Source: Beduinella massiliensis (lineage in GTDB: Bacteria; Bacillota; Clostridia; Christensenellales; Aristaeellaceae). Taken from it: a stretch of DNA of 64,000 nucleotides. Where the stretch lies: positions 3,193,605 to 3,257,604 of the forward strand of contig NZ_LT963430.1 of assembly GCF_900199405.1 (NCBI RefSeq). The letters are read 5' to 3'. How positions within the stretch are numbered: position 1 is the first letter of the stretch; every line of letters begins with the position of its first letter. This document shows positions 296 through 64,000 of the stretch, in pieces. A program made the translations under genes and the position numbers. Under the pieces are notes generated by a model. The model made no database searches and was not told the DNA's origin. It was given only the letters and a program-made list of their open reading frames with translations.

Positions 296-889
296 CGGAG
301 GGGATAAGGCAGGGGCCGCCGATCCGGGGAAGTTTGGCCTGTTACAAGACAGAGAGGCCCCGGATGGGGCGGCCCCCTTGATTGCTATATCTGCGCCGTA
401 TTTGCCACGCATCCCCGGCGCGGGGAACATTTCAGGCCGCCGGTGGCTCCGACTGTCATAGCTCCACCGTACCGCTGCCTCGCCGTCACAAGCTCCATAT
501 CCCTCGCTTCCGCCTTGCGGCAAAAGCTCGTTCATTTCGCTGTTCCGGCTCCTCCCAGCAAATCATTGATTTGCCGGGAACCCTTTTAGGCTGGCGCATA
601 CAGCAGGGCTCCCCCGCAAGTCCGTGGGAGGGCGTGAGCAAGTTTCATTATCCCCCGCGCTGTCATCGCGCCCGGCTTGCCGTGGCCGGGTCAAAGACTG
701 GCGTTGATCGCTCGGATAGCTTGTCCTTCATACCCCCTTAAAGCTATCTGTCCTGGCGGCGCGTCTTTCGTCGCTACTCACGCGGGTTTTGTGCCTGAAA
801 TGCTGTCTATTCAGTTGTCACGGTTCCAAAGAAAGGGCTTGTACCTCTTTCTATTTACCATGTCTTTTTCAGGGTCAAACCGCAGGCGA

Positions 890-1429: not shown

Positions 1430-1766
1430 CGGGTACAAAAAACGTCCGCACAGCAGATAGCTATGCGGACGCACGAAACGAAACAATCTATAAAGTAGTG
1501 ATATGTTTCATGTATACTGGCGGACTGATCCCATGCAAAGATTGGCCTTTTTTTAAGCGGTAAAGTTTGTTAGGGACTAAACTGTAACATGGCGGCCTCC
1601 TCCCTTATGCCGCCGCTTATAGGGGTAGCAAAACGGCGGCTTTGATTTCTCAAAAGCCGCCGTCAAGTGGGCGTGAAGATATATCTGCTGTACGACGGCT
1701 TTTTTTCTTTTGCCGTCGTGCGGCAGTTTTGGCGTTATAGCGTATAGTCCCTATGGAAAATGGGGG

Positions 1767-3232: not shown

Positions 3233-3261
3233 ACGCATACCCTCCTTTTTGTGATGATAAA

Positions 3262-3292
3262 AGAATACCACCAATGAAAACATTGGTGGTAA
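3262..3292 (-). promoter_or_regulatory. MerR-type promoter of the ABC exporter operon
   Basis: On the minus strand, -35 TTACCA (3287-3292) and -10 TATTCT (3262-3267) are separated by 19 bp. That long spacer is the hallmark of promoters activated by MerR proteins. The spacer lies within a perfect dyad, ACCACCAATG-TTTT-CATTGGTGGT (3267-3290). The tandem MerR gene lies immediately upstream. Confidence 0.8.
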
Positions 3293-3302
3293 GATGGAGG
3301 GT

Positions 3303-4046
3303 TTATGAGTATTGCCGTTTCATTTTCTGCAACATTTCCATCAGAATGACGGCGTTTTTTTTCGCCGCAGACAGGGAGCGGATTAACTGGTCACAAGCCG
3401 AGATAATATCGTCGGATGGCCTTGGCGTATTGAGCACAGTCTTAATATCCACGTTGGGATTTTTGGATAGCTGTTGGATCATCCGTAAAATGGCCTCCAG
3501 CGAGTAATTGGCACAGCGCAGGGCGCGAATGATTTTCAGACGTTTGATATCGTCATCCGTATAGATGCGATAGCCGTTTTCTTTCCGCTTAACCGCCAGC
3601 AAGCCGTTCATTTCCCAATTCCGCAGGGTGTCCATTGAAACGCCTAAATACTCAGATACTTCTTTCCGCTTCATAAAAGTCCTGTTCTCTTGGTTTTCGC
3701 CAGATATGATTTGTTTCACAATGCGGATCGCATCCTCCGCATTATCACGCTCTTGAAGCAGCCCGCTTAAATATGACTGCGTAAGGGAAAGGGCATCATC
3801 AAACTTCCCCGCCGCCGACAATTTGACCATCTGAAATATTTTCTTTCGCAGGCCGCTTTGCAGGATTTCAATTTGAAAGGCTGTACGGGCAAGCCGGATT
3901 TGATCAATGTGAAAATCCGTAAAGACCCGATACCCATTCTCTTTCCGCTCCGGCCTTGGAATAATGCCCCATTCTTCATACAGGCGCACGGTGTTTGGAT
4001 GTATTCCAATCACGGCGGCGACCTGTGATGTTTTGTATGTGTTCAC
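3303..4046 (-). CDS. Tandem MerR-family regulator with two HTH domains
   Basis: A 247-residue protein with two MerR-type DNA-binding heads: residues about 2-60 (SQVAAVIGIHPNTVRLYEEW then ENGYRVF) and about 124-190 (RKEVSEYLGVSMDTLRNWE then ENGYRIY). Each is followed by helical segments. Typical MerR proteins have one head and dimerise, so this is an internal duplication. The GTG at 4044-4046 is preferred because GGAGG lies 9 nt upstream. It sits directly upstream of the ABC exporter and its 19-bp-spacer promoter, so it likely controls that operon. A dyad at 4098-4121 may be its own operator. Confidence 0.8.
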   Translation of the reverse strand: MNTYKTSQVAAVIGIHPNTVRLYEEWGIIPRPERKENGYRVFTDFHIDQIRLARTAFQIEILQSGLRKKIFQMVKLSAAGKFDDALSLTQSYLSGLLQERDNAEDAIRIVKQIISGENQENRTFMKRKEVSEYLGVSMDTLRNWEMNGLLAVKRKENGYRIYTDDDIKRLKIIRALRCANYSLEAILRMIQQLSKNPNVDIKTVLNTPRPSDDIISACDQLIRSLSAAKKNAVILMEMLQKMKRQYS

Positions 4047-4097
4047 AGCAAACCACCTCCAATCTCCTGTAGTATATCTCATTTTGAAAGTCTGGTG

Positions 4098-4121
4098 TTA
4101 TAGTGGAGGGTTTCACTATAA
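4098..4121 (-). promoter_or_regulatory. Dyad upstream of the merR gene, candidate autoregulatory operator
   Basis: Inverted repeat TTATAGTG-8 nt-CACTATAA. A good -10 (TATACT, minus strand, about 4071-4076) lies between it and the merR start, with the dyad over the -35 region. Autoregulation is inference. Confidence 0.45.
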
Positions 4122-4235
4122 GGCATCTGTATTTTGCTTGCAAGGATGCAAATAGGAAATAAAATACTACTAATTCATAAAATTGTGTTTCGTTTTCATA
4201 ATGTACCCTGAAATGTAGAATGATATAGGGGTGAT

Positions 4236-4598
4236 ATGAAAATGTACCAATACGATAAGCGCCTTGACTTCCACGCCCTGGGGCGGGAAATCAAGCGCAA
4301 GAGGGAGGCCAAAGGTTGGACACAGGAATATCTGGCCCAGCTTGTGGATCGTACTCCGCGCTCCATCATGTATATCGAAAACCGGGGCCAGCATCCCAGC
4401 CTCAACACCTTTTATCAGCTCGTCACCCTGCTGGATATTTCCGTAGACCAATTTTTCTATCCAGACAAGCAAAACGGCCAGAGCGACTGCCGGAAGCATA
4501 TTGATGTCTTGCTCAATTCGATGGATGAGAAAGAACTAACAATTATGGAAGCCACAGCGGAGGGACTGAAAAAGGCCCGTGGAAGGTCGGAAGCGTGA
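4236..4598 (+). CDS. XRE-family helix-turn-helix regulator
   Basis: A 120-residue protein with an N-terminal XRE/Cro-type HTH (about residues 12-68; LGREIKRKREAKGWTQEYLA then RTPRSIMYIENRGQHPSL) and a C-terminal tail without a clear domain. Such regulators are common control genes in Tn1549-like elements. It is divergent from merR and convergent with the relaxase gene. AGGGGTG lies upstream; the ATG at 4242 has better spacing (9 nt) than 4236, so the protein may be two residues shorter. Confidence 0.8.
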   Translation: MKMYQYDKRLDFHALGREIKRKREAKGWTQEYLAQLVDRTPRSIMYIENRGQHPSLNTFYQLVTLLDISVDQFFYPDKQNGQSDCRKHIDVLLNSMDEKELTIMEATAEGLKKARGRSEA

Positions 4599-4725
4599 AA
4601 ACGCGGCCAACCTTTTTTTGTGAAGGTTCCGGGGAGCGCGTTAGCGGCAAGCAAGGCAAGTGTATAGACACTTGCCATTTTCGCGCCGCGAAAATGCTTG
4701 CTGGGGTGCCCCCAGACCCGCTGGA

Positions 4726-4748
4726 CTTCTGGCCACACTGGCCAGAAG
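4726..4748. repeat. TTCTGGCCA palindrome, copy 3
   Basis: Reads CTTCTGGCCA-CAC-TGGCCAGAAG, a perfect 10-bp dyad. It lies 37 bp past the relaxase stop, between the convergent xre and relaxase genes. Confidence 0.9.
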
Positions 4749-4785
4749 TCCGGGGCGCGTCGCGCCCCTTGTCGGCGGCCCGTCG

Positions 4786-6198
4786 CTATCGCTCCTGGGC
4801 CTTATTTTCCCGCCCATCCGTCAGGCCGAGCAGGTGATCCACGTTGTCCTTGACGGCCACCAGCTCCCGCATCTGCCGCTGGGCCTCCCGGTAGTCGGTG
4901 TAAAGGGCCTTTTTCTTGTCGGCCAACTCCCGGCGGGATTTTTTGAGCGCGTCCATCCGGGAGAGCTTTGCCCCACCCAGGATGTCATTCATAGAAGCGC
5001 GGGCGGCCCGGTAGGTGGCAAGCTCCGCCTCGTGTTCGGCCAGATACTTTTTGGAGTACCGGGCGGCCTTGTAGCCGTCGAACACTGGCCGGGTCTTGGC
5101 ATAGTCCACCACGGCCCCCATGAGCTGGCCGGTCTTGGTGAGCTCCGCCTCCACGGACTGGAGCTCCCCGGCCAGGGAGTGAGCGCGATCCACCGCCCCC
5201 GTGGTGGCGGCAGCCAGCGCGTCATAGTCGGTCAGGCCGTGCTCCAGGAGGTACTGGAGGGCGGCGGCCATCTGTTTGAGATTGTAGACCTTGGCCCACC
5301 GCTCGTATGCCGGGCCCTTGCCCCTGCGCATTCGCTCCTGGATGTCGATGACCAGATCGACACGCCGGAGAGCCGGGCGAGGGCGCTCCGGCGCTCTCTT
5401 ACGGGTGGGGGCCGTGCCGTCGATAACGGCCCCCACGTCCTCGGGGCCGTAGCCGTCCCCCAGGGTGGAGGCCCGGAGCCGGGAGGCGCAATCCTGGCCG
5501 GGGACACGGAAGGAGATCACGCCGCCCCGCCCATGCACCACCTGAACGCCCGCCGCCTCCACGCGGCGGAGGAAGTCGGCAAAGTCGGCGGGGCGCTCGG
5601 TCAGGGCCGTGTCTATGGCGCGGCGGATCTGCTCCTTGAAAGAGGGGGGCCGGGCCTCGCCCATCCACTGGCCGTAATGCTGATACTTGCCCTTGCTGTG
5701 GAGCTTGGGGCGCTCCACCACGGAAAGGGAGTGTTCCAGGCACACCCGGTCAGAGAGCCGCCGCAGGGCAAAGGTGGAGCCGATGAAGTTGCGAAACTTC
5801 CGGGAGCGGTCAACGGCGGTGGAATTGAAATAGATATGGTTGTGAATGTGCCCCTTGTCAATATGGGTGCAGACGAAAAACTGGTACTTGCCCTTTGTCC
5901 AGCGGAGGGCGGTTTCATAGCCGATCCGGTTGGCCTCCTCCGCCGTGACCTCCCCCTCGGGGAACGCCTGCCGTATCTGATAACACAGCGCCCCCTGCTC
6001 CGCCGTCCGGCCCGTTTCCACTTGATACTGGCTTTTCACCAGCATAAACTCGGCGTGGGCCGCCTCGGGATCGCAGAGGTAGGCGGACACGGCCCCCAGC
6101 TTCTCCGGGTTCAGGCCGTAGTCAAAACGGCCTTTCATGCTCTGTACAGCGGACTTGCCCACCGTTCTTTTGTGAGGCTTGATGTAGGTCGTGGCCGT
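4786..6198 (-). CDS. MobP-type relaxase with a non-AUG start
   Basis: Relaxase that nicks oriT and leads the transferred strand. The metal-binding motif HIDKGHIHNHIYFNS (about residues 112-126) is the HxDxxHxHNHxxxN signature; the C-terminal half is long and charged, with coiled-coil-like stretches. The frame stays open upstream of the GTG at 6162 and encodes ATTYIKPHKRT, the usual N-terminus of this family (normally MATTYI...). The codon at the expected start is ACG (6196-6198), 7 nt after AAGGGGG. The GTG at 6162 would remove the conserved N-terminus and has no ribosome site. The gene was probably once joined to mobC, but a plus-strand DUF262 gene now separates them. Confidence 0.85.
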   Translation of the reverse strand, partial: TATTYIKPHKRTVGKSAVQSMKGRFDYGLNPEKLGAVSAYLCDPEAAHAEFMLVKSQYQVETGRTAEQGALCYQIRQAFPEGEVTAEEANRIGYETALRWTKGKYQFFVCTHIDKGHIHNHIYFNSTAVDRSRKFRNFIGSTFALRRLSDRVCLEHSLSVVERPKLHSKGKYQHYGQWMGEARPPSFKEQIRRAIDTALTERPADFADFLRRVEAAGVQVVHGRGGVISFRVPGQDCASRLRASTLGDGYGPEDVGAVIDGTAPTRKRAPERPRPALRRVDLVIDIQERMRRGKGPAYERWAKVYNLKQMAAALQYLLEHGLTDYDALAAATTGAVDRAHSLAGELQSVEAELTKTGQLMGAVVDYAKTRPVFDGYKAARYSKKYLAEHEAELATYRAARASMNDILGGAKLSRMDALKKSRRELADKKKALYTDYREAQRQMRELVAVKDNVDHLLGLTDGRENKAQER

Positions 6199-6224
6199 GG
6201 GCGTTCCCCCTTTCTATGAAGAAA

Positions 6225-6250
6225 GGCGGCGGCTGTTTTCAGCCGCCGCC
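6225..6250 (-). promoter_or_regulatory. GC-rich hairpin in the relaxase leader
   Basis: Perfect 11-bp stem GGCGGCGGCTG/CAGCCGCCGCC with a TTTT loop. It lies between palindrome copy 4 and the relaxase ribosome site. No T-run follows on the minus strand, so it may be a leader structure rather than a terminator. Confidence 0.6.
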
Positions 6251-6260
6251 TGTGGCCCAG

Positions 6261-6283
6261 CTTCTGGCCAGTGTGACCAGAAG
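6261..6283. repeat. TTCTGGCCA palindrome, copy 4
   Basis: Reads CTTCTGGCCA-GTG-TGACCAGAAG, 62 bp upstream of the inferred relaxase start and 10 bp from a GC-rich hairpin. Confidence 0.9.
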
Positions 6284-6341
6284 TTTGTCTGCCTCGCTAA
6301 TAAAATTTTTTAGTTATCTGAACATTGATGACTGCAAAGTA

Positions 6342-6370
6342 TTGTCGAAATGTAATATATGGAGTATAGT
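6342..6370 (+). promoter_or_regulatory. Promoter of the DUF262 gene
   Basis: -35 TTGTCG (6342-6347) and -10 TATAGT (6365-6370) with 17 bp between, 23 bp before the ATG at 6393. Confidence 0.6.
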
Positions 6371-6392
6371 AAACCAAAAGGGAGGCGATTGA

Positions 6393-7973
6393 ATGGCGGA
6401 AATTTCAATTCGTAGAATTATTGAAAAGACTCTCACAGGAGAAATCAGAATTCCCTCATTTCAACGTGGATTTGTTTGGGAACCTGAAAAAGTAGCTTTT
6501 TTTATTGATAGTCTCTATAAGGGATATCCTATTGGCTCTTTACTTTTCTGGAGAACAAATGAACGGTTAGATAATGAGCGCCGTTTAGGTTGTTTTGACT
6601 TACCAGAGCCAACAAAAGGTTATCCTTTAGATTATGTTTTGGATGGGCAACAACGGATTACATCAATTTTTTCTGTGTTTCAGACAGAATTGTCAGCCTC
6701 ATCATCGTCAAATTGGATGGACATCTATTATGTTCTCGGCAGTTCAGCTGATAGTCAACAAAGCCAGTTTGTCCCTCTTGACTCTGATGCAGTTGATACT
6801 AAATTGCACTTTCCATTAAATTGCCTTTTTGATTCTGTTAAGTATCGTAAGGCAACCGAGGGATTAGAGGATTCAACAAAAGTTGAAGTTGACAAGTTAC
6901 AAGAAATATTTAAGGAGATTCAAATTCCATTCCAGCTAATGGAGACAGATGATCGTGCGCATGTTGCGATAGTTTTTGAACGCATTAACCGAACTGGCGT
7001 GCCGCTGGATTCTTTCCAACTCTTGAAAGCTTGGAGCTGGAGTACTGATTTTGATTTACAGGAACAACTTGATGATTTGTCCTCGGAACTTGCGGATTAT
7101 GGATATGACGGATTAACTACTGATCAAGACTTGCTCTTAAAGTGTTTTACTGGCTATATCCTTGGAGAAACTTCTCCGGGTTCAATTACGAAACTAAACG
7201 GTGAAAACATTCGCACAAATTACGACGAAATAAAAAATGGCATTAAGTCGGCTGTTGACTTTATAAGGTCAGAACTAAAACTCGACAGCCTAAAGTATCT
7301 ACCATATCCAGCTATGTTGGTATCACTTGTAAAGTTTTTTGGTACGCCCAAAAAAGGCGGGGCCACATATACGGATTTACAACGCCAAAGCCTTATCAAA
7401 TGGTTTTGGCGTGGGTGCTTCTCTAGGCGGTATTCTAGCGGTGTGAACAGCGCTCACGAAAGCGATTTGCAAGCAATGAAAAATTTAGCGCAAGATGAGC
7501 GTTTCGATATTTGCTCATTTAAGTGTGAAATATTTCCATCCTTTTTTACCGGAAATGTATTTAATCTTAATACAGTCAATACAAAGACTTTCATAGCTAT
7601 GCTAGCATCTGCATCTCCACGTTCATTTATTTCTGGTGCTAATGTAGACCTCTCAGAACCAATGAAATTAGCCAATTCAAAAGAATTTCACCATATATTT
7701 CCGGCCAAACATTTGCAACGTCTTGGTCTGGAGAGGAGTCAAATTTACTGTCTGGCAAATTTTTGCTTTTTAAATAATGCAGACAATCAAAAAATTAAGG
7801 ACAAGGCTCCCGAAGATTATTGCAAAATGATAACTACAGACAAAATAGATGAAATACTTGCATCTGCAATTTGTCCGTCCCAAACATTTTCACTTGATTA
7901 TGATACATTTATTACTGAACGGGCAAAACAGTTGGTATCATATTCAAAAAAATTGTGCGGAATTATAGCTTAA
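6393..7973 (+). CDS. DUF262 / HNH domain protein, candidate phage-defence nuclease
   Basis: A 526-residue protein. The N-terminal DUF262 (ParB-like nuclease fold) has PSFQRGFVWE at 21-30 and the signature DGQQR at 84-88. The C-terminal HNH-like part (DUF1524 type) has FHHIFPAKHL near 432-441 and an Asn-rich segment after it. This is the layout of GmrSD-type restriction enzymes and related defence proteins; activity here is inference. The gene is clearly richer in A+T than its neighbours, has its own promoter and GGGAGG ribosome site, and runs opposite to the transfer genes between mobC and the relaxase. It is therefore acquired cargo. Confidence 0.85.
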   Translation: MAEISIRRIIEKTLTGEIRIPSFQRGFVWEPEKVAFFIDSLYKGYPIGSLLFWRTNERLDNERRLGCFDLPEPTKGYPLDYVLDGQQRITSIFSVFQTELSASSSSNWMDIYYVLGSSADSQQSQFVPLDSDAVDTKLHFPLNCLFDSVKYRKATEGLEDSTKVEVDKLQEIFKEIQIPFQLMETDDRAHVAIVFERINRTGVPLDSFQLLKAWSWSTDFDLQEQLDDLSSELADYGYDGLTTDQDLLLKCFTGYILGETSPGSITKLNGENIRTNYDEIKNGIKSAVDFIRSELKLDSLKYLPYPAMLVSLVKFFGTPKKGGATYTDLQRQSLIKWFWRGCFSRRYSSGVNSAHESDLQAMKNLAQDERFDICSFKCEIFPSFFTGNVFNLNTVNTKTFIAMLASASPRSFISGANVDLSEPMKLANSKEFHHIFPAKHLQRLGLERSQIYCLANFCFLNNADNQKIKDKAPEDYCKMITTDKIDEILASAICPSQTFSLDYDTFITERAKQLVSYSKKLCGIIA

Positions 7974-8017
7974 AATAGTTGCGGGTACAGCAAGTTTAAC
8001 TGCTGTGCCCGCAATTG

Positions 8018-8365
8018 TTATATCTTTACCACGACGGCCAGCTTTTCCAGCAGCTCGGAGAGAGGCCCCCACAGGTCGGCATAGTCTTTTTGCAGGGCCT
8101 TGATCTCCTCGGGGCAGATGCCGCCGTAGGTGTTTGCCTGGATCGCCACCTGGTTCAGATTGTTGGAGCACCGGCGCTGGAGGGAGACAAGCTCCCGGAC
8201 GGGTTCAAGATCGACGTTGAGCACATAGCCGGTTAGGGCCATTTTGCGGATATAGGCGCTCAGGTTGCGGATGCCCGCCTGGGCCATGCGCTCCCGGATG
8301 GCCTCCAGCTCGTCAGGGCGCACCCACACATAGATGGGCACGTTGCGGACGCGCTTCTGGTTCAC
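8018..8365 (-). CDS. mobC: MobC-like relaxosome accessory protein
   Basis: A 115-residue protein with a basic ribbon-helix-helix-like start (RNVPIYVWVRPDELEAIRERM then LSAYIRKMAL) and the MobC C-terminal helix with NNLNQVAIQAN. It is expected to bind oriT and help the relaxase. It starts with GTG (8363-8365) after GAGGAG and overlaps the preceding small gene by 4 bp. The relaxase, its normal partner, now lies beyond the DUF262 insertion, so mob transcription would have to pass through about 1.8 kb of antisense DNA or use a new promoter. Confidence 0.85.
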   Translation of the reverse strand: MNQKRVRNVPIYVWVRPDELEAIRERMAQAGIRNLSAYIRKMALTGYVLNVDLEPVRELVSLQRRCSNNLNQVAIQANTYGGICPEEIKALQKDYADLWGPLSELLEKLAVVVKI

Positions 8366-8547
8366 CGCTCCTCACGCTCCAGGCTGCGCCTGCGCCGGGG
8401 CGGTTCCTTCACCTTGTCCGTTTCCATCACCGGAGCCGGGGGCACGGGAACGGACGGCGGGGCCGGAAGGTTGTTGATAATCCCGTTGATGTGGTCATAG
8501 TTCTGCTCCATAGACAGCTTCGCGTTTTTTAAAGGGTTGTTATCCAT
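8362..8547 (-). CDS. Small proline-rich conserved ICE protein
   Basis: A 61-residue protein with Pro/Val repeats in the middle (PAPPSVPVPPAPV) and a basic C-terminus (PPRRRRSLEREER). I do not recognise its family. The ATG (8545-8547) follows AGGAGGAG at good spacing, and it overlaps mobC by 4 bp, so it is probably translated with mobC. It may be a relaxosome accessory. Confidence 0.6.
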   Translation of the reverse strand: MDNNPLKNAKLSMEQNYDHINGIINNLPAPPSVPVPPAPVMETDKVKEPPRRRRSLEREER

Positions 8548-8565
8548 AGACTCCTCCTAAAAGCA

Positions 8566-8594
8566 TTGTCTTTTTCAACAAATTATTGTATTAT
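8566..8594 (+). promoter_or_regulatory. Promoter of a small-peptide transcription unit
   Basis: -35 TTGTCT (8566-8571) and -10 TATTAT (8589-8594) with 17 bp between. It points right, divergent from the mob genes, and feeds a unit that ends at the terminator near 8829. Confidence 0.65.
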
Positions 8595-8685
8595 ATTTGC
8601 GGGCCAATGTCTGCCCCCTCCTGGCCCACCAGACTCCACAGGAATTACAGCAAATGAGAGTATCACTAAAGGAGGGGGAGTGCTG

Positions 8686-8814
8686 ATGTCTAAAATTATC
8701 GCAGGTGTTCAGAAAATCATTGGTAAGGTATCCGGCCATCGTTACACTGGTCTTACACTCAAGATGCCATTCGTCAACCTCTCATTTGCCCCTGTGCTTT
8801 TTAACAGCCCCTAA
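8686..8814 (+). CDS. 42-residue peptide of unknown function
   Basis: The open frame starts MSKIIAGVQKIIGKVSG and ends VLFNSP. It has a strong ribosome site (AAAGGAGGGGGAG, 4-5 nt before the ATG at 8686-8688), a promoter at 8566-8594, and a rho-independent terminator that overlaps the stop codon. The first 17 residues would form an amphipathic helix like membrane-active or phenol-soluble-modulin-like peptides; the rest is hydrophobic. I do not recognise a family. It lies on the strand opposite the transfer genes, in the probable oriT region upstream of mobC. Confidence 0.55.
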   Translation: MSKIIAGVQKIIGKVSGHRYTGLTLKMPFVNLSFAPVLFNSP

Positions 8815-8829
8815 ATGGGGCTGTTTTTG
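8803..8829 (+). terminator. Rho-independent terminator of the small-peptide unit
   Basis: Stem AACAGCCCC/GGGGCTGTT (8803-8811 and 8817-8825) followed by a T-run. It overlaps the last codons of the 42-residue peptide. Confidence 0.85.
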
Positions 8830-8850
8830 TTAGCTTTTTAAGCCGGAAAC

Positions 8851-8881
8851 GGGGGCCGGACGTGAAAACGTACCGGCCCCC
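8851..8881. repeat. Strong hairpin upstream of mobC, candidate oriT element
   Basis: Arms GGGGGCCGG-ACGT and ACGT-A-CCGGCCCCC enclose a GAAA loop, with one bulged base. No T-run follows. It lies in the only sizeable gap upstream of mobC, where oriT is often found in MobC/relaxase systems. No nick site was identified, so the oriT role is inference. Confidence 0.4.
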
Positions 8882-8942
8882 AATAAACCGGGCCCGCGAA
8901 GTCTTGAAACAAGCGGGGTTCAAAGGGCCAAAAGCTCACAGG

Positions 8943-9296
8943 TCAGCCCCGGTTTTTCCTCATATATCCCCGCTGGCGCTTACGCCTCGCGGCCCCGGTG
9001 CAAGCCTCGGAGCAGTAGGCCCGCCGCCCATGGGGGACGAAGGCCCCGCCGCAGACGGGGCAAATCCGCATCTCCGGGGCCGGGCCCTCGGTGGTGAGCG
9101 CCGCCTCCAGCGCCGGATCGGTGGGGAGCACGGCCTCCCGGAAATAGCGGCACAGGGCCCCCGTCCAGCACTTGCCCAGCATATAGCACTCACAGTCCAG
9201 GGGCAGGCATCCGTATTCCCGGTCATAGTTGGCGCACAGGGAGAGCACCAGCTTGCGGATGGACGCCCTTTCCTCGCGGGTCAGTTCCCGGCTCAT
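8943..9296 (-). CDS. Cysteine-rich VLP-domain protein
   Basis: A 117-residue protein with an N-terminal Cys cluster (LCANYDREYGCLPLDCECYM then GKCWTGALCRYF) typical of the Cys-rich VLP domain of clostridial conjugative elements. A second zinc-knuckle-like part (CPVCGGAFVPHGRRAYCSEAC, split about residues 80-100) and a basic tail follow. Probably a zinc-binding DNA or RNA contact protein; the function is unknown. It overlaps the end of the DUF4366 gene by 4 bp. Confidence 0.8.
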   Translation of the reverse strand: MSRELTREERASIRKLVLSLCANYDREYGCLPLDCECYMLGKCWTGALCRYFREAVLPTDPALEAALTTEGPAPEMRICPVCGGAFVPHGRRAYCSEACTGAARRKRQRGYMRKNRG

Positions 9297-9952
9297 TCCT
9301 CCGGCTCCCCGTCGCCGTCCTCGTCCCAGGGCGGGCCGTCCTCATAGTCCTCCTCGTAGGGGGTGGGCTCGTCGGCGCAATCCTCCTCGGGCGTGGGGGC
9401 CCCCTGGTGCTTGGGTCGGTAAACCTTGAAGTAGAACGCGGCCCCGCCGCCGAGCAGGAGCACCGCCAGCCCCAGCAGAAAGGGCCCGGCCCCGCCCTTG
9501 GCCTGCGGCTCAGGCTCCGGGGCCGGGGCCGGTTCCGGGCTGGGTACAGGGTCAGGCTCGGGGCTGGGGGCCAGGGGCTCTCCGTTGGCCTCGGCCAGCG
9601 CCGCGAGGTCGGCCAGGGTGACGGCATTCAGGAAGTACACATTCTCCGCGCCCCGCTGCCGGTCAATGACGAGATAGAAAACGGACTCGTCCGCCGTGGT
9701 GATGGTGAAAAACTCCTTGCCCTCCTGGTCTGTGGCATTGTCCACCACCGTACCCGTGCCGGGCGGGGTAAAGGGCCTCTGCTCCGGCTCCGGGGAGGGG
9801 GCCGGGGCCGTCTCCGCCGGGTCGAGCCCCTCCCACAGATCGCTGCCCTCGGTGCCCCCGCCCTCGTCGGAAAAGGCATAGGCCGGGACGGTGAAGCTGC
9901 AGAGCAGGACGGCGGCGCACAGGGCCGCCGCTAAAAACCGCGCTTTTCTCAT
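9293..9952 (-). CDS. DUF4366 cell-surface conjugation protein
   Basis: A 219-residue protein with a signal peptide (MRKARFLAAALCAAVLLCSF..., cleavage near AYA-FS), an extracytoplasmic domain of about 90 residues, a Pro/Glu-rich spacer (about 130-150), a membrane helix (about 155-177) and an acidic cytoplasmic tail. This is the layout of the DUF4366 (CD1107-like) family. It probably forms part of the Gram-positive mating channel. It overlaps DUF4315 by 4 bp. Palindrome copy 5 lies 30 bp upstream. Confidence 0.85.
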   Translation of the reverse strand: MRKARFLAAALCAAVLLCSFTVPAYAFSDEGGGTEGSDLWEGLDPAETAPAPSPEPEQRPFTPPGTGTVVDNATDQEGKEFFTITTADESVFYLVIDRQRGAENVYFLNAVTLADLAALAEANGEPLAPSPEPDPVPSPEPAPAPEPEPQAKGGAGPFLLGLAVLLLGGGAAFYFKVYRPKHQGAPTPEEDCADEPTPYEEDYEDGPPWDEDGDGEPEE

Positions 9953-57242: not shown

Positions 57243-59411
57243 TTACTGCTCCATCTGACGGCCCACGATGGAAGCCGTCGTCTCCGCAACCTTGAGCTCG
57301 GTGTCGCCCATCTTCGCGTTCTGTTCGCGCGAAAGGAGCAGCACCGCGCCGATGGATTCGCCGTCCGCGATGATCGGGCAGATCACCTGCGCGGTGTACG
57401 CGGCGGCGTCTTCCTCGTTCGTCACGGCCAGCATCTTGCCGCCGGATTGGCGGCTGACGTTGACGACCTGGCGGCCCTGAATCGCCGCCTCCAGGTCGCG
57501 GCTGATGGGCTTATCCCACAGCTCCTTGCGCGATACGCCGCTGGCGGACACGACCATGTCGCGGTCGCAGATGCACGCGATGTGCCCCAGCGAACGGAAG
57601 AGCGACTCCGTGTAATCCTTGGCGAAGGAGGAGATTTCCCCGATCGGGGAATACTTCTTGAGGATCACCTCGCCGTCCTTGTCCGTATAAATCTCCAGCG
57701 GGTCGCCGTCACTGATAACATGGGCATCGAAAACCTTGTCCTTTTGGTTCTTCGCGCTTTGGACAAGACGGCATTGCAGGATATTTTCGATGCCCCGGTT
57801 AAAATTTACGGCTTCCTCCAACGTGCAGGAGCGAAGCAGCGCGTCGATGTCCGCCTGCAGGTAGATCTCCAGATGGTCCTCGAATACCCGGATGCGGTCG
57901 ATGATGAGTTCGAGGTCGTTGCGCTCGAGCTTCTCCTTTTCCAGCACGTCCCGGAATACGTCCATCGCCGTCTTGGCGACGCGGTTGACCCGCAAAATGG
58001 TGTTGCGCCTGTCCGAAAGCAGGCCGATCTGACGGTTCAGCCCTTCTATCTTCCTTTGCAGATCGCCCTCCAGCTCGTCGTACGTCTCTTCCAGCAGGGC
58101 TTCCTGCTCGGGGTGCTTCATCAGATCCCGGATGCGCTGGCGCTTGGTGGCCTTCAGCTCCTCGTGCAGGTCGCTGAGCACCTCCGCCAGATGATCGGCG
58201 GACTGCTCGGTCTCCGCCACGTCTTCTCTCTCCCGGGAAAGGCCGGCGTTGAGCTGTTCCAGCATGCCGGAGGAACCCTCCATCACGCGCCGGACGTAGA
58301 TTTTCAGCAGCTCATCCAGCCTGTCCGCCCGAATATGGTGAGAGGTGCACCCGGCGAGGCCACGCCGGTGGTACGTACCGCAGGTGTAGGCGGGCTTCAA
58401 GTCGCTGCGGCTCATGGCGAACATGGGGCCTGCGCAGTCGCCGCATTCCAGAAAGCCGGAGTACACGTTGTCATACTTCTTCACGCCCCGGTAGTTGGAG
58501 CGGGTGCGCTTTTCCCGCAGGGCCCGCGTCGTGGCGAAGGTGCGGTAATCGACGATGGCCTGATGGTGGTTTTCGATGACGATGTGCTCTTCCTCGTCCC
58601 GCTTCACGTCCCTGCCGTTGATCTTGGCCCGCGTATACTTGCCCTGCCGCAACGTGCCGATGTAAAAGTCGTTGTCCAGGATGCCCTGAACGCTCACGAT
58701 GCTCCACGCGGCCTTTACCGGGCGGTTGTAGCTTTCGCCCTCGGCTTCCTTGCGCATCTGTTCGGACATACGCGGGGTAGGAATCCCCTGCTCAGTGAGG
58801 AAGTTGGCGATCTTCTTGTATCCCCAGCCCTCGTGATTGTAGAGCGCAAAAATCCGCCGAACGATGTCCGCCTCGGTTGGCACGACCTCGAATTCCCGCT
58901 GCCGGTTCACGATATAGCCGTAGGGCGCGGCGCAGATCCACCGGCCGTCCACCTGCCGCCGCTTGATGACGTTTCTGACCTTCTTGGAGGTGTCGGTGAC
59001 GGGCATCTCATTGATCAGGAACTGAAACTGAATCTTCAGCCAATCGTCGTCATTGGGAAAGTCGATGCCGTCGCCGATGGAGATGATGCGGACCCCGGCG
59101 TCGCGGAGGTCCTCCAGCTCCACCAGGCCGCGACTGTTGCGGCGGGAAAACCGCGAAAAATCCTTGACGAGGAGGATGTCCTTGCGGTGCGCCATCAGCT
59201 CGCGGCGCATGGACTGATAGCCCTCGCGCTGTTCAAAGGTATAGCCAGAGCGGTCGCGGTCCTCGTAAAAGGTGAGCGTGCTGCCGGGAAAACGCTGCTT
59301 CACGTAGTCCGCGAGGATCGCCTTCTGGTTTTCGATGGAGGTGTTGTCCTTGTCCAGCTCGTCGTCCACGGAGATGCGTGCGTAGCCCGCGATGTCAAAG
59401 GTTTCGATCAC
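57243..59411 (-). CDS. Large serine recombinase fused in frame to the C-terminal part of SpoVT
   Basis: 722 residues. 1-150: serine recombinase catalytic domain (Ser14 in GYARISVD, VKDFSRFSRR). About 165-290: recombinase domain. About 323-354: zinc ribbon (CGDC... CGTYHRRGLAGC). About 390-460: coiled coil. From residue 566 the protein becomes the SpoVT sporulation regulator from its middle: GDPLEIYTDKDGEVIL, KKYSPIGEI, then LGHIACICDRDMVV and a final RQMEQ, typical of SpoVT's C-terminal GAF domain. The SpoVT N-terminal AbrB domain is missing. The GTG start (59409-59411) follows GAGG. Confidence 0.85.
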   Translation of the reverse strand: MIETFDIAGYARISVDDELDKDNTSIENQKAILADYVKQRFPGSTLTFYEDRDRSGYTFEQREGYQSMRRELMAHRKDILLVKDFSRFSRRNSRGLVELEDLRDAGVRIISIGDGIDFPNDDDWLKIQFQFLINEMPVTDTSKKVRNVIKRRQVDGRWICAAPYGYIVNRQREFEVVPTEADIVRRIFALYNHEGWGYKKIANFLTEQGIPTPRMSEQMRKEAEGESYNRPVKAAWSIVSVQGILDNDFYIGTLRQGKYTRAKINGRDVKRDEEEHIVIENHHQAIVDYRTFATTRALREKRTRSNYRGVKKYDNVYSGFLECGDCAGPMFAMSRSDLKPAYTCGTYHRRGLAGCTSHHIRADRLDELLKIYVRRVMEGSSGMLEQLNAGLSREREDVAETEQSADHLAEVLSDLHEELKATKRQRIRDLMKHPEQEALLEETYDELEGDLQRKIEGLNRQIGLLSDRRNTILRVNRVAKTAMDVFRDVLEKEKLERNDLELIIDRIRVFEDHLEIYLQADIDALLRSCTLEEAVNFNRGIENILQCRLVQSAKNQKDKVFDAHVISDGDPLEIYTDKDGEVILKKYSPIGEISSFAKDYTESLFRSLGHIACICDRDMVVSASGVSRKELWDKPISRDLEAAIQGRQVVNVSRQSGGKMLAVTNEEDAAAYTAQVICPIIADGESIGAVLLLSREQNAKMGDTELKVAETTASIVGRQMEQ

Positions 59412-59694
59412 TTGCCGTCACCTCGCTTGCCTTTATATTCTGCCGTCCCGCGGTTGCATCCGGAGACGGTTTCGTCGCTTTCCAGAGGCCCTCCAGACAC
59501 GGAAAGCCCCAAGCCCTATCAACAACAGTGATTCTATCCATTCCTGTATCAGATAACATTGTAACGCAATGCGGCCGATATTACAAGCGCTAAGCCAAAG
59601 AAATGGGAGAGCGCCCGCCCTCCCATCTGCATCCCGATACCCTGTCAATCGGCTGAAATGAGAGGGCGCCTCGTCCTCCCGTTTTTTCTTTTTC
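59412..59694. other. Gap upstream of the serine recombinase gene
   Basis: No gene is seen. It contains a small hairpin (CATTG-TAACG-CAATG, near 59557-59571), an 8-base match to the SpoVT junction, and no SpoVT N-terminal sequence. Confidence 0.5.
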
Positions 59695-59949
59695 TCAAAG
59701 CGGCAAATTTTGCTGCTGCTCGTGCCGGACAGCCAGTTCCGCAAGCCGCTTTTGATTGTAGGAAAGCAGGTTCAGCGTGCTTTGATAGAGATCGCAGCCG
59801 CCGGACGCATACACGGCGACCAGATATTTTTTCAGCTTGTACTTTGCATAGAGGGGCCTCAGGCTTTCCCGCACAGCGGGATCGTCTTTTTCCGCGTTGG
59901 TCAGCCAGACCTCCACCAGCCGGCGTTCGTCGCTTATGCGAACCTCCAA
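59695..59949 (-). CDS. Small conserved protein next to serine recombinase
   Basis: 84 residues (EVRISDERRLVEVWLTNAEKDD at the start, YKLKKYLVAVYASGG in the middle). I recognise it as a type of small protein often found beside large serine recombinases in clostridial mobile elements; its function is unknown. The TTG start (59947-59949) is inferred; a GGGAGGAG lies about 12 nt upstream. Confidence 0.6.
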   Translation of the reverse strand: MEVRISDERRLVEVWLTNAEKDDPAVRESLRPLYAKYKLKKYLVAVYASGGCDLYQSTLNLLSYNQKRLAELAVRHEQQQNLPL

Positions 59950-60139
59950 AGGTCATCACGCTCCTCCCTTCCAATCGTTTCCTCGCCTTCCTCGATTTAT
60001 GCAGCCGGGGCGAACGCAAAAATCGAGGCCCGAAGGCCCGCGAGGAAGCGCGGCGGAAAAGAGGCGTAAAACAGGAAAGGCCGGGCCGCAAAAATCTGCG
60101 AACCGGCCATTCTGTGTTCCTGCTGGGCAATTCTTCGCG

Positions 60140-61123
60140 TCAAACTCCCGCGATTTTCATCGCGCCGTGCAAGCCCATTTTGCCCGAAATTTCCGACGGC
60201 ACCTGCTCGGCGTCTTCGATGCCCATCGCGCCCAATACGTCCCTGATCGCGCGCTGCAGGGGCATCTTGCCCGCGATATAAACCTTTACAGACGAAACGT
60301 CCGGGATAAATGCCTGGAGCGCCAGCGCATCCTGCGCGAGCACCGCGCCGAGCAGGTAACTGCGCAGGCGAACGCTCTCTACGCCGCCCAGTTGATTGAG
60401 GATGCGCCCCGCAAACGCCGAGCGCCCCAGCCCGCAGCGCAGGCATTCCATCGCGCCCCTGCACGCCATCTCCGCGTCGTAGTCCTCCTCCGTGGCGAAC
60501 GCGCGCCCGACGGCGTCGGCCAGGATCGTGCCGTGCGTGACCGCGTCGAGCAGCTCGCCGGAGATGGAGGTCATGCAGCCGAGGATCTCCCCTTTCGCGC
60601 TGACGCGGACGAACTTGTTGTGCGAGCCGGGCAGGATGAACACGCTCTCCTGCCGCGGCCTCAGCAGGTCATAGAGCCCGATCGATTCGGTCTCCTCGCC
60701 GCGCATCATGTCCATGCCGGAGCAGTTTTCGAGCGTCACGCTGCCGGCGAAGTTGCGGACGCCCGGGATGAAGGCAATCTCAAACGGCGCGATCTGCGGA
60801 AAGCGCTCTGTGCGCATGCCGCGCCGCAGGTCTTCCGCTGAGACGGGGGCGATCAGATGCGGAATCTCCAAGAGGCCCACGTTGCTCGTGATCATGCCGA
60901 AAGCTACGCAGCGCGACACGTCCCCCATCTGCAATCCGGCCTTTTGAAGGACCTCCTCCATGCACTCGGCGAGCATCGCCTTGAGCCTGCCGTTGTGTCC
61001 ATCGATCGCCGTATGGCGCACGCCGCCGGAACGGCTGCCGCGCGCGAGAACCCGGCCGTCCCCGCCCAACAGCATGCAGCGCAGGTTGGTCGTGCCGCAG
61101 TCCACGATGATCGTCGCGCTCAT
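60140..61123 (-). CDS. dgoK: 2-dehydro-3-deoxygalactonokinase
   Basis: About 327 residues of the ASKHA sugar-kinase-like DgoK family (IIVDCGTTNLRCMLL phosphate-1 motif; PGSHNKFVRV; IYIAGK-like segment VKVYIAGKMP). It phosphorylates 2-keto-3-deoxygalactonate. ATG at 61123 with GGGAGG; it overlaps dgoA by 4 bp. Confidence 0.85.
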   Translation of the reverse strand: MSATIIVDCGTTNLRCMLLGGDGRVLARGSRSGGVRHTAIDGHNGRLKAMLAECMEEVLQKAGLQMGDVSRCVAFGMITSNVGLLEIPHLIAPVSAEDLRRGMRTERFPQIAPFEIAFIPGVRNFAGSVTLENCSGMDMMRGEETESIGLYDLLRPRQESVFILPGSHNKFVRVSAKGEILGCMTSISGELLDAVTHGTILADAVGRAFATEEDYDAEMACRGAMECLRCGLGRSAFAGRILNQLGGVESVRLRSYLLGAVLAQDALALQAFIPDVSSVKVYIAGKMPLQRAIRDVLGAMGIEDAEQVPSEISGKMGLHGAMKIAGV

Positions 61124-61794
61124 TTTTCCGCCTCCCACGCCGCAATCGCCTGGGTGAACGCCTTTGCGCGCGCCTCAATCGCCGCGTAGTCGCCTTCCCT
61201 GACCGCGTCCGCAAGGACGAGCGGCCCGCCCACGCCGAAGCCGCAGACGCCCGCATTCAGGAAGTCCCTGACGTTATCCGGCTTGACGCCGCCCACCGCG
61301 CTCATCGGAATATGCTTCAGCGGCCCGCGCACAGCCTTGATGTAGCCCACGCCGAGCTCGCCCGCCGGGAAGAGCTTGACGATGTCCGCGCCCGCGTTCC
61401 ACGCGGTGACGATCTCCGTCGGCGTCAGCGCGCCGGGCATGGAGACCATGCCGAGCTCGCGGGCCCTGCGGATGACCTCGATGTTTACATCCGGGGAGAT
61501 GACCAGCCCCGCGCCGGCCTCATGTGCCGCCGAGACCTCGTGGACGCTCAGCGCCGTGCCGCAGCCCACCGCGACGGTATCGCCGTAGTGCTCCGTCACG
61601 TAGCGAATCTTGTCCGCATTCTCCCGCAGATAGTTCTCCCGGTCGTGGTCAAACGTAAATTCCAGCACGCGCACGCCGCCCGCAATCAACGCACGGACGA
61701 CGCCGTCGATGCGGTCCATCGGCAGGCCGCGCAGAATCGCGACCAGGTGCTCCCGGCGGATGATTTCAAGGACTTCGTCATGACTTCTGTTCAT
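61120..61794 (-). CDS. dgoA: 2-dehydro-3-deoxy-6-phosphogalactonate aldolase (KDPG/KDPGal family)
   Basis: About 224 residues, KDPG/KHG aldolase fold: VRVLEFTFDH (Glu) and Schiff-base Lys in VKLFPAG. It splits the phosphorylated product into pyruvate and glyceraldehyde 3-phosphate. ATG at 61794 with AAGGAAG. It overlaps dgoK. Confidence 0.85.
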   Translation of the reverse strand: MNRSHDEVLEIIRREHLVAILRGLPMDRIDGVVRALIAGGVRVLEFTFDHDRENYLRENADKIRYVTEHYGDTVAVGCGTALSVHEVSAAHEAGAGLVISPDVNIEVIRRARELGMVSMPGALTPTEIVTAWNAGADIVKLFPAGELGVGYIKAVRGPLKHIPMSAVGGVKPDNVRDFLNAGVCGFGVGGPLVLADAVREGDYAAIEARAKAFTQAIAAWEAEK

Positions 61795-61907
61795 GCTTTT
61801 TCTTCCTTTCCGTACACGATAAAAAGCGAAGCGGGAAGCCGGGCAACGATCGTAAGCCGGCTTCCCGGGCAATCAGAGCCGCTCTCCCGGCGCCGGGCAG
61901 CGACGGC

Positions 61908-63053
61908 TTACCACTCGGCGATGATGCCGTCGCTGTCGCGCCAGATCGGGTTGTGCCAATCGTGCCCGCTTTCGGCCATCTTGCGCACGTACTCCTCGTT
62001 CACCTCGATGCCAAGGCCCGGCCCGGTCAGCAGGCCGCACATGCCGTCCTTATACGTGAACACTTCCGGATTGCGAATGTAGTTGAGCAGGTCGTAGCCC
62101 GCGTTGTAGTGGATACCCGCGCTCTGCTCCTGGATGAACGCGTTGGGCGAGCAGAAGTCGACCTGCAGGCAGGCCGCCAGCGCAATCGGTCCCAGCGGGC
62201 AGTGCAGCGCGACCGCCACGTCGAACGCCTCCGCCATGGCCGCGATCTTGCGCGCCTCCAGAATGCCGCCGCAGTGGCTCACGTCGGGCTGCAGGATGTC
62301 GACGCCGCCGCGCGTGAGCATGTGCTTGAACCCCCAGCGGGTGAAATTTCGCTCGCCTGTCGCAATCGGCGTATGGCACGTGCGGGCAAATTCGAGGAAC
62401 TCGTCCTCGTTCTCGCAGAGCACCGGCTCCTCCACGAACATCAGGTTGTACGGCTCGAGCATGTGGATGAGCTGCTTGGCCATCGTCTTGTGCACGCGGC
62501 CGTGGAAATCCACCGCGATGCGCATGTCCGGCGCGACCTCGCGGATCGCCGCCACGCGGGCGACCGTCGCTTCCAGCTTGTCATAGGTGTCGATCCAGCG
62601 CAGCTCGTCCGTGCCGTTCATTTTGACGGCGCGATAGCCCTGCGCGATCGCTTCCTTCGCCGCCTCGCCGGTATCGCGCGGATGATCGCCGCCGATCCAG
62701 CGGTACACCTCGATTCGGTCGCGCACCTTGCCGCCCAGCATCTCGTAGACCGGTACGCCGAGCGCCTTGCCCTTGATGTCCCACATGGCCTGCTCGATGC
62801 CCGAAATGGCGCTGGTAAGGATGGGGCCGCCACGGTAAAATCCCGTGCGATACATCAGCTGAAATGCATCCTCGACGTCCGTGGCGCTGTGTCCAATCAG
62901 CTGCGCCCCCAGTTCCTTCACCGCCGCGGCGACGGTGTCCGCCCTGCCCTCGCAGACGGGCTCGCCCCAGCCAGTCAGGCCGTCATCGGTCGTCATCTTC
63001 AGGAACAGCCAGCGCGGAGGAACCTTGAACAGTTCAATCTTCGCGATCTTCAT
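61908..63053 (-). CDS. dgoD: D-galactonate dehydratase
   Basis: 381 residues, enolase superfamily. Metal ligands RIAVDFHGR (Asp near 181), MFVEEPV (Glu) and ATGERNF (Glu), and the base His in VALHCPLGP fit the DgoD group. It dehydrates galactonate to 2-keto-3-deoxygalactonate. First clear pathway gene after rraA. Confidence 0.9.
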   Translation of the reverse strand: MKIAKIELFKVPPRWLFLKMTTDDGLTGWGEPVCEGRADTVAAAVKELGAQLIGHSATDVEDAFQLMYRTGFYRGGPILTSAISGIEQAMWDIKGKALGVPVYEMLGGKVRDRIEVYRWIGGDHPRDTGEAAKEAIAQGYRAVKMNGTDELRWIDTYDKLEATVARVAAIREVAPDMRIAVDFHGRVHKTMAKQLIHMLEPYNLMFVEEPVLCENEDEFLEFARTCHTPIATGERNFTRWGFKHMLTRGGVDILQPDVSHCGGILEARKIAAMAEAFDVAVALHCPLGPIALAACLQVDFCSPNAFIQEQSAGIHYNAGYDLLNYIRNPEVFTYKDGMCGLLTGPGLGIEVNEEYVRKMAESGHDWHNPIWRDSDGIIAEW

Positions 63054-63070
63054 GATCTCTACCCCTATTC

Positions 63071-63751
63071 TTACAAAATGCCGTACTTTTTGAATGCGTC
63101 GGCGGCGCTCATCCCCGCGCGGATCGCCTTGCCGACCGTCTTTTCACCGGTGGCCTTCTCCCACGCGCGCGAGATGACCTCGGCCTCGACCTCGCGCGGA
63201 ATCACGACCACGCCGTCAAGGTCTCCAAAGACGATGTCCCCCGGGCAGACGTGCACATCCCCCACGTCGATCGGAACGCGCCAGGCCGTCACGCGCCCGC
63301 GCGGCGCCTGATCCTGCGCATACCGCCCGCGGCTGAAGCACGGGAAATCCAGCTCCAGAATGCCGCGCGTATCCCTGTGCGGGCCGTTCATCACCGTTCC
63401 AACCGCGCCGCACGCCTGCATCCGCGTGCACATCAGCTCGCCCACCACCGCGTAATCCGGCGAGGACCCCGAGCAGATGTACACCTCGTTCTTTTGCAGC
63501 CCATCCAGCGCGTCGAGCATATAGCCAAACGTCGGTTCGCTCGGGACGGGCTCGCCGATCTGGGGAAGGTCCTCCTCCAGCACCGTCATCGCCCGCCCGC
63601 AGACGACCATGTCCTCGCGGATCGGCTGAATCTCCATCGGGAGAAACTGATGGTACCTTCCCATCTGGTCCAGAATATCGCCGATGACGGCGGAGTACAG
63701 GTCACGCCGCATGATGGCAAACAGTTCATCGTCATTCTTCCACGTCAACAT
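63071..63751 (-). CDS. RraA-family protein (HMG aldolase-like)
   Basis: 226 residues of the RraA/HMG-aldolase fold (GDILDQMGRYHQFLP, GAVGTVMNGPHRDTRGI, VHVCPGDIVFGDLDGVVVIP). Members include 4-hydroxy-4-methyl-2-oxoglutarate aldolases; in sugar-acid operons the role is unclear. It overlaps the dehydratase gene by 20 bp and comes before dgoD. Confidence 0.8.
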   Translation of the reverse strand: MLTWKNDDELFAIMRRDLYSAVIGDILDQMGRYHQFLPMEIQPIREDMVVCGRAMTVLEEDLPQIGEPVPSEPTFGYMLDALDGLQKNEVYICSGSSPDYAVVGELMCTRMQACGAVGTVMNGPHRDTRGILELDFPCFSRGRYAQDQAPRGRVTAWRVPIDVGDVHVCPGDIVFGDLDGVVVIPREVEAEVISRAWEKATGEKTVGKAIRAGMSAADAFKKYGIL

Positions 63752-64000
63752 CGTTCGCTCCTACTACGGCGCCTTCCGCCGCCGATTTGCTTATCGCCTG
63801 ATAGACCTTCAGATAACCGTCCGGAATCTCCTTGCGCGGCCTCGTCCAGCGCGCTTTCCGCCCGCGCAGGGTTTCCTCCGGCACGCGCAGTTCAATGCGC
63901 CTGTTCGGGATGTCGATTTCGATCTCATCCCCGTCCTCGACCAGCGCAAGCGCGCTGCCCTCGTAGGCCTCGGGCGAAATGTGCCCGACGAACAGGCCGC
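63732..64000 (-). CDS. IlvD/Edd-family dehydratase (partial)
   Basis: Only the last 89 residues are in the window: GHISPEAYEGSALALVEDG then IDIPNRRIELRVPEE, the C-terminal domain of IlvD/Edd-type sugar-acid dehydratases. The stop (63732-63734) overlaps the rraA start. The rest of the gene lies to the right. It may dehydrate another sugar acid for the same pathway. Confidence 0.85.
   Translation of the reverse strand, partial: GLFVGHISPEAYEGSALALVEDGDEIEIDIPNRRIELRVPEETLRGRKARWTRPRKEIPDGYLKVYQAISKSAAEGAVVGANDVDVEE

Follow-up and report, generated by a model that had tools for sequence, protein, structure and literature searches.

Introduction

Intervening elements that interrupt sporulation genes include skin, SPbeta, vfbin, vrin, gin and yin, and as these are described (PMC4191935, PMC5595907, PMC10747680, PMC5025042) their host genes act in the mother cell or are controlled by SigK. 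As is argued in PMC4191935, an element that is excised only in the mother cell is retained in the genome of the spore. The recombinase of the Clostridioides difficile skin element is reported to be made also in vegetative cells, with a small recombination directionality factor setting the timing (PMC5025042), and excision of gin during sporulation is reported to require GirC and GirX (PMC5595907). Here we analysed a stretch of 64,000 nucleotides from Beduinella massiliensis, a spore-forming gut bacterium of the class Clostridia (RefSeq assembly GCF_900199405.1, contig NZ_LT963430.1, positions 3,193,605 to 3,257,604), hereafter called the window, in which the gene of a large serine recombinase runs in frame into the 3' half of the sporulation gene spoVT. 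The recombinase belongs to an element of 27.0 kb that occupies the single spoVT gene of the genome and is probably excised during sporulation, by the recombinase and a directionality factor, whereby spoVT would be rejoined. The integration, both gene halves, the attachment (att) sites, the exchange of C-termini and the recurrence in relatives are established at the sequence level, and we regard the interruption of spoVT as real, recurrent and probably reversible.

In C. difficile, SpoVT is described as a forespore regulator, the promoter of its gene resembles those of both forespore sigma factors, and the spoVT mutant formed phase-dark immature spores and no heat-resistant spores (PMC3789822). 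With spoVT presumably encoding a forespore regulator here as well, the mother-cell logic of the published elements would fail for an element in this gene.

Integration of the element into spoVT

A preliminary description of the window had reported a recombinase frame that continues, after residue 566, as the C-terminal part of SpoVT. This frame was real and single (Table 1). Pfam domains were Resolvase (residues 7–158), Recombinase (178–302), Zn_ribbon_recom (317–369) and SpoVT_C (592–721; E 4e-42), so that the domain set of a large serine recombinase (Resolvase, Recombinase and Zn ribbon) was complete. The NCBIfam model spore_V_T matched residues 566–721 from model position 27 to its end and scored 182.5 bits, under the full-length cut-off of 235.9 because model positions 1–26 were absent. 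Serine recombinases have a conserved Y-R-S-D motif around the catalytic serine, and the corresponding Y10, R12, S14 and D16 were invariant in 13 aligned recombinase rows. The structure predicted for the fusion was poor (mean pLDDT 59), with very low confidence for residues 530–597, which bear the junction. A whole-genome search revealed no second SpoVT_C.

A search of the genome for the AbrB-type DNA-binding domain gave three places. One of these, C3:3278316-3278393(-), covered only model positions 1–26 of 48 and lay in the N-terminal half of spoVT, on the same strand as the fusion and upstream of it in the reading direction, approximately 20.6 kb past the end of the window. At this distance it had been overlooked in the preliminary description, which considered the AbrB part missing. 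The domain is in fact not entirely missing: it is split between REGDP and LEIYTD, and its other half is retained in the genome.

The N half came with a matching attachment site: a 9-bp core, GGCGACCCG, was common to both junctions and directly repeated at the element ends, 27,010 bp apart from core to core. When the flanks were joined, they aligned without a break over 653–660 bp (88%) to the intact spoVT of two genomes of the same genus, each present as two records, in which the element had no match. The rejoined SpoVT (182 aa) was 97.3% and 96.2% identical to the two intact proteins. The gene was thus found split, with its halves in order and in the same orientation, an intact site in relatives and a frame that is restored by joining the flanks; the element lies between codons, after REGDP and before LEIY. 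The halves in order, the shared core and the complete rebuilt gene show that the element is integrated in the only spoVT of this genome. The proposed integration, with a recombinase frame crossing the attachment site, is therefore borne out by the second half, the 9-bp core, the intact relatives, a symmetric attP and 20 parallel cases, the last two of which are described below.

Attachment sites and exchange of C-termini

The attP rebuilt from the two junctions was a near-palindrome with the GA of GGC-GA-CCC at its centre. Its arms were complementary at 15 of 20 positions around GA in the window's element, compared with 7 of 20 for attB. The first 18 rebuilt pairs gave 14–16 of 20 for attP in every case (18/18) and 6–9 of 20 for attB, and six further pairs gave attP values of 17, 16, 16, 15, 11 and 11. 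Over all 24 pairs, attP symmetry was 14–17 of 20 in 22 and 11 of 20 in two (G047 and G1054). In one genome (G008), host and element differed on either side of the centre (attL GGCGACCCA, attR GGGGACCCG), and this host polymorphism places the crossover within GACCC.

Read through the rebuilt attP, the recombinase ran ...VISDGDP-SQMTGRASERFCFAMMELGKRAGWG and then reached a stop codon. Because attP sits inside the recombinase coding sequence, near its 3' end, integration swaps C-termini: as read from the rebuilt site, the integrated enzyme trades its native 25-residue tail for the C half of SpoVT, and the N half of spoVT receives the tail. The tails of other elements had 24–31 residues, many of them similar (e.g. 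SQITGKAWEKFCFAMSDLAKRAGW and SLMALTQTEQFCIALMNTADRFGAP). The ratio of nonsynonymous to synonymous differences (pN/pS) in the tail was 0.28 in a group of nine elements and 0.20 in a group of four, which indicates that it behaves as coding sequence within groups.

A more distant recombinase occurred at the same spoVT site in G1054 (L191/L204). It stopped approximately 140 bp before the core and was unfused, and its rebuilt attP was one of the two weakly symmetric ones mentioned above (11 of 20). The spoVT site hence serves more than one type of recombinase.

Recurrence in relatives

Among 76 relatives of the SpoVT part on genome contigs, 20 were fused in frame at the same codon and 53 ran into the AbrB half, including two (L017, L080) with only a partial AbrB half that were counted as intact. 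Two contigs began at the core (L016, L069) and one was cut off by the contig edge (L076); these three were counted neither as fused nor as intact. That 20 of the 76 relatives have the identical junction, down to the codon, excludes chance and an assembly join, which the preliminary description had named as a possible refutation, as sources of the junction. The N half was present in 17 of the 20 fused genomes and diverged at GDP or one codon later. Wherever both parts were on one contig (G000, which is the window's own genome, G007, G008, G011, G013, G014, G353 and G380), the N half was upstream and on the same strand (8/8).

In the home family, SpoVT_C was detected in 145 of 308 genomes, and at least 21 of these 145 carried the fusion: 19 with long open frames, which were read or shared their coordinates with loci that were read, and two partial ones. 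Five more short contigs of the family matched fused loci by coordinates, and one genome with a long frame (G499) had an intact spoVT. Species with fused and with intact genes occurred side by side within the same genera. An order-wide draw of 396 genomes gave eight recombinase matches at E ≤ 1e-60, all of them fused. In a class-wide draw of 391 genomes, G720, G752, G871, G1042 and G795 were fused besides G000, and G1054 was unfused. Both counts are lower bounds, with at most two and at most three candidates scored per genome, respectively. Together with G047 and G185, the fusion is known from five families of the class besides the home family. Three IMG/VR contigs (L180, L181 and L183) and a human faecal scaffold (MT836658) were likewise fused.

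Two loci were unusual. On L198 (G010:C9:1-6000), two N halves of spoVT, each carrying the tail of the element, stood in tandem approximately 1.6 kb apart, at 344-550(-) and ~1940-2118(-). Each was followed by a similar open reading frame (ORF) of 85–91 aa (MNMDFYTAFYDMDEN... in one of them), and two small ORFs between the halves resembled a MazE/MazF pair by eye. The tandem N halves are either tandem element ends or a mixed assembly. On L058, a match to the small protein of the element (see below) was located at 3784-4026, approximately 1.8 kb upstream of an intact spoVT, with no clean covering ORF among those of at least 90 aa; it is perhaps a relic of a lost element.

Element content and mobility

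Six elements were compared, with spans of approximately 7.0, 14 (ending at the contig end), 15.7, 19.9, 22.0 and 27.0 kb. Antisense frames over them aside, only the recombinase and a protein of 84–88 aa were common to all six (BLAST E ≤ 1e-4). This small protein belonged to no Pfam family and had no fold match at E ≤ 0.001; one of the two members tested gave one weak PHROG match (E 0.013). On the basis of its conservation in the elements it is the best candidate for a directionality factor.

The remaining cargo varied. It comprised sugar-acid catabolism and a tripartite transporter in the window's element (G000), sulfatase and polygalacturonase-type enzymes in G011, an O-antigen-ligase-like protein in G007, and AAA-ATPase-like and actin-like proteins in G013. 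A Mob_Pre relaxase was found in G008, G014 and MT839487. No relaxase was detected among 10 scanned proteins of the window's element, and G007, G011 and G013 were scanned in part. We regard the 27.0-kb element as a site-specific genomic island that carries a single large serine recombinase at one end and may be an integrative mobilizable element. Inside the element on L082, a protein of 2705 aa (1497-9614(-)) had five near-identical long repeats by eye and is likely a surface protein; a 654-aa protein with EEAARKA repeats adjoined it.

In the four closest pairs, three of which were drawn from the same three loci (L071, L072, L123), synonymous divergence was 0.22–0.24 for the recombinase versus 0.52–0.58 for the host spoVT, and the pN/pS of the recombinase was approximately 0.05. 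The fifth closest pair was slightly reversed (0.370 versus 0.336), and over all 190 pairs the recombinase had the lower synonymous divergence in 97, i.e. there was no overall difference. The low divergence and low pN/pS in the four closest pairs suggest that the recombinase has moved between hosts and is a working enzyme. A phage or a plasmid home was not supported: 249 phage records had a match, two at 60–80% and 247 at <60% identity, and the only phage matches above 50% among the matches listed were two unannotated faecal scaffolds, while all 180 matching plasmid records had <60% identity.

The TACAAT of the sigma-A-like promoter preceded the recombinase in 15 of 18 loci inspected. In several elements, a GATACAATATTATC-like near-palindrome was seen by eye over the -10 box of this promoter (window 59550-59570) and is a possible operator. 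A further serine recombinase, 27% identical, was encoded at C3:3191999-3193498(-), approximately 107 bp before the start of the window.

Table 1. Positions of the fused gene, its attachment sites and other element features (window positions unless preceded by C3)
Feature	Position	Strand	Description
Fused ORF	57243..59411	-	722 aa, GTG start; large serine recombinase in frame with the spoVT 3' half
Recombinase part, carried by the element	57708..59411	-	568 aa before the core; Resolvase, Recombinase, Zn ribbon, then a long helical region (modelled with low confidence)
spoVT 3' half (host gene)	57243..57707	-	GDPLEIYTD... to the stop; contains SpoVT_C
attL core, GGCGACCCG	57699..57707	-	central GA at 57703-57704
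attP arm on the recombinase side, ATGCCCATGTTATCAGTGAC	57708..57727	-	last recombinase codons before the core
Element part inside the window	57708..64000	-	continues to attR at C3:3278321
Sigma-A-like promoter, TTGTAA-N17-TACAAT	59558..59586	-	precedes the recombinase
Small protein	59695..59949	-	84 aa; in 6/6 compared elements; candidate directionality factor
DGOK sugar-acid kinase	60140-61138	-	element cargo (cargo block 60140..63751)
KDPG/KHG aldolase	61120-61872	-	element cargo
Enolase-superfamily protein	61908-63053	-	element cargo
RraA-like protein	63071-63751	-	element cargo
spoVT N half	C3:3278235-3278432	-	reads ...ATGIVRRIDELGRVVIPKEIRRTLRIREGDP, then SQMTGRASERFCFAMMELGKRAGWG, then stop
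attR core	C3:3278313-3278321		matches attL; beyond the window

Retention of spoVT and contig breaks at the core

Sporulation genes were retained in genomes with a split spoVT: SpoIVA was present in 20 and SASP in 22 of 25 such genomes, and at least one of them in all 25. Both were present in all eight tested genomes with an intact gene, and neither in any of 10 home-family genomes without SpoVT_C; many of the genomes in this test are incomplete. The genomes without a SpoVT_C match, some of them incomplete, amount to 163 of the 308 in the home family. Together with the absence of SpoIVA and SASP from the 10 tested, this may mean that a large share of the family has lost sporulation.

None of 20 split spoVT C halves contained a stop codon. 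In three bins, pN/pS of the split C halves was below that of the intact ones (0.075 versus 0.094, 0.154 versus 0.230 and 0.194 versus 0.236). In the bin of lowest divergence, with one split pair only, it was 0.078 for split versus 0.036 for intact halves. This comparison took in 44 of the 53 intact loci; it omitted L064-L067, L070 and L079, whose match is one codon longer, L073 as the most distant locus, and L017 and L080 because of their unusual upstream sequence. The motif search upstream of the gene used the generally known forespore promoter consensus. The N half of G000 was preceded by a forespore-type promoter, GCATA-N17-CATACTA, which was also present in the intact loci L005 and L006 of the same genus.

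Contig edges accumulated at the core. In 24 relatives with an upstream contig edge within 6 kb (of 25 such relatives, 24 were measurable), 10 edges lay at most 220 bp from the core, and the other 5.8 kb held 14 (Poisson ~3e-10, the background rate being taken from these 14 and the loci being treated as independent). The core of L012, at ~134, was inside this 220-bp zone. The contigs of L016 and L069 started 3 and 5 bases before the core, that of G626 started with its first codon, and the IMG/VR contig L175 ended within it. The accumulation fits assembly forks between coexisting configurations and hints at their presence.

Proposed mechanism and alternative explanations

The recurrence of the same arrangement in related species suggests that the element is removed again for spore formation. 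In the mechanism that we favour, the recombinase and a directionality factor, perhaps the 84–88 aa protein, would excise the element during sporulation; the rejoined spoVT would allow forespore gene expression to proceed, and the excised circle would re-integrate after germination or move on by mobilization. With its sigma-A-like promoter, the recombinase would be present in growth and its direction would be set by a second protein. Such a promoter suits the arrangement reported for C. difficile skin (PMC5025042), in which an enzyme of the growth phase is directed by a second protein.

We also hypothesized, tentatively and with rather little confidence, that the exchange of C-termini is itself the switch. 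The native tail would then favour integration, and the SpoVT C-terminal domain, which we take to be of the GAF type, would favour excision in the forespore by sensing the forespore state or by partnering with SpoVT. The element would leave the germ-line chromosome of every spore and re-enter at germination.

Several points weigh against the favoured reading. Excision in the forespore would strip the element from the spore chromosome, unlike the published cases that are described as limited to the mother cell (PMC4191935). The N half was not found in three of the 20 fused genomes, and a pattern search of IMG/VR and 179 loci did not find the attP junction of a circle. Sporulation-type motifs before the recombinase were isolated, one sigma-G-like and one sigma-K-like among 18 loci (one of which, L032, is a fragment with coding sequence upstream), and there were none before the small gene in 10 loci. 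A sigma-F/G-like motif stood before the N half in only 6 of 19 split loci; among the intact ones it was present in 18 of 49, after exclusion of two of the 51 whose upstream sequence was short, so that a forespore promoter holds for some lineages only. In G008, G014 and MT839487, the small gene follows the relaxase gene, and the small protein may therefore belong to mobilization. The tail had a pN/pS of 0.72 when all 18 elements were pooled without alignment, the purifying selection on the spoVT halves may predate recent insertions, and strain mixture may equally have given the contig breaks at the core.

It is possible, although we consider it somewhat unlikely, that the element merely uses spoVT as a conserved site, that excision is stochastic and tied to transfer, and that carriers sporulate poorly or as an element-free subpopulation. 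This would accommodate the sigma-A-like promoter of the recombinase, the small gene without a sporulation promoter motif, the Mob_Pre relaxase in three elements, the four closest pairs, in which the recombinase is less diverged than the host spoVT, fused and intact genomes within the same genera, and contig breaks that fit a strain mixture. Yet at least 21 of the 145 SpoVT_C genomes of the family carry the element and a spore marker is kept in every split genome tested (25/25), and if SpoVT is as vital as described for C. difficile (PMC3789822), excision without control would come at a high cost.

The preliminary description had further allowed for a permanent loss of SpoVT or a domesticated fusion regulator. 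With the element stuck and spoVT reduced to a dead fragment pair, the lack of a second SpoVT_C in the genome would be as observed. Such a loss is nonetheless improbable, since no split C half has a stop and the spore genes are kept in split genomes while they are lacking in the 10 tested genomes without SpoVT_C; in addition, pN/pS was not raised in three of four bins, and purifying selection on the recombinase is strong in the closest pairs. An old host protein with a function of its own and no tie to excision would agree with the frame being open across the junction in 20 of 20 fused loci and with the unfused state of the distant recombinase in G1054. We regard it as very unlikely because 17 of the 20 genomes have an undamaged N half with attR and the closest recombinase pairs appear to have been transferred between hosts. 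The cargo moreover varies, the symmetry of attP is kept, and the SpoVT DNA-binding domain of the fused protein is without its first half. That the relatives are, judged by their titles, metagenome-assembled or uncultured genomes could raise the suspicion of an assembly or binning artefact, to which we attach next to no weight: 20 of the 76 loci have the junction at exactly the same codon, it recurs in IMG/VR contigs and a human faecal scaffold, it has matching attR partners, and a misjoin could not give the rebuilt palindrome.

Comparison with known systems

The gin element in gerE of Bacillus cereus is, like the spoVT element, a non-phage island with a serine recombinase and variable content that splits a sporulation regulator gene, and its att sites have a 9-bp consensus and an inverted repeat (PMC5595907). 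As described there, gerE is a mother-cell gene and gin has three recombinases, whereas spoVT, judged from C. difficile, is a forespore gene and the compared elements in it have one recombinase in common. The recombinase of the spoVT element also differs from gin in reading through attP into the host gene. The skin element in sigK of B. subtilis and C. difficile likewise is a serine recombinase element that splits a sporulation regulator; it is described as prophage-like and restricted to the mother cell (PMC5025042, PMC4191935), and the spoVT element, whose excision is proposed, differs from it in host target and cargo. SPbeta in spsM (PMC4191935) and yin in yabG (PMC10747680) share the location in a sporulation gene that is rejoined on excision. 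Unlike the spoVT element, they are described as prophage or prophage-like and sit in mother-cell or SigK-controlled genes.

The position of attP within a gene of the element has a counterpart in mycobacteriophage BPs, in which integration alters a C-terminus by removing 33 residues (PMC4557955). In BPs it is the repressor that is truncated (PMC4557955), whereas the recombinase of the spoVT element has its own tail exchanged for a domain of a host regulator. Engineered fusions of integrases with directionality factors show that a C-terminal partner of a serine integrase can set its direction (PMC5737554); these are man-made with the directionality factor as the partner, whereas the partner in the spoVT element is a host protein. 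A recombinase gene that holds its own attP and swaps its tail for a host domain is a natural case of an enzyme architecture dependent on the integration state. Archaeal SSV viruses have attP within the integrase gene. If the exchange of tails is the switch, the spoVT element would act as a reversible DNA switch in the heritable cell lineage, and the mobile element would be borrowing a sensor domain from the regulator that it interrupts.

No report of an element in spoVT was found by title and abstract, in a search that had most subscription papers and all preprints outside it, and the main text of a survey of large serine recombinases (PMC10083194) does not mention spoVT. The conserved spoVT site across many gut Clostridia offers natural serine integrases with deduced attB and attP sites and a candidate directionality factor. 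The elements described in the sources cited here sit in genes of the mother cell, which is doomed, so that excision costs the element nothing; with spoVT as a presumed forespore regulator, excision would affect the cell line from which the spore arises. If excision does take place there, the element has to persist as a circle and integrate anew, or it would disappear with each sporulation. By its probable forespore gene target, the spoVT element appears to be a new variant, unlike the elements of mother-cell genes described in the sources cited here.

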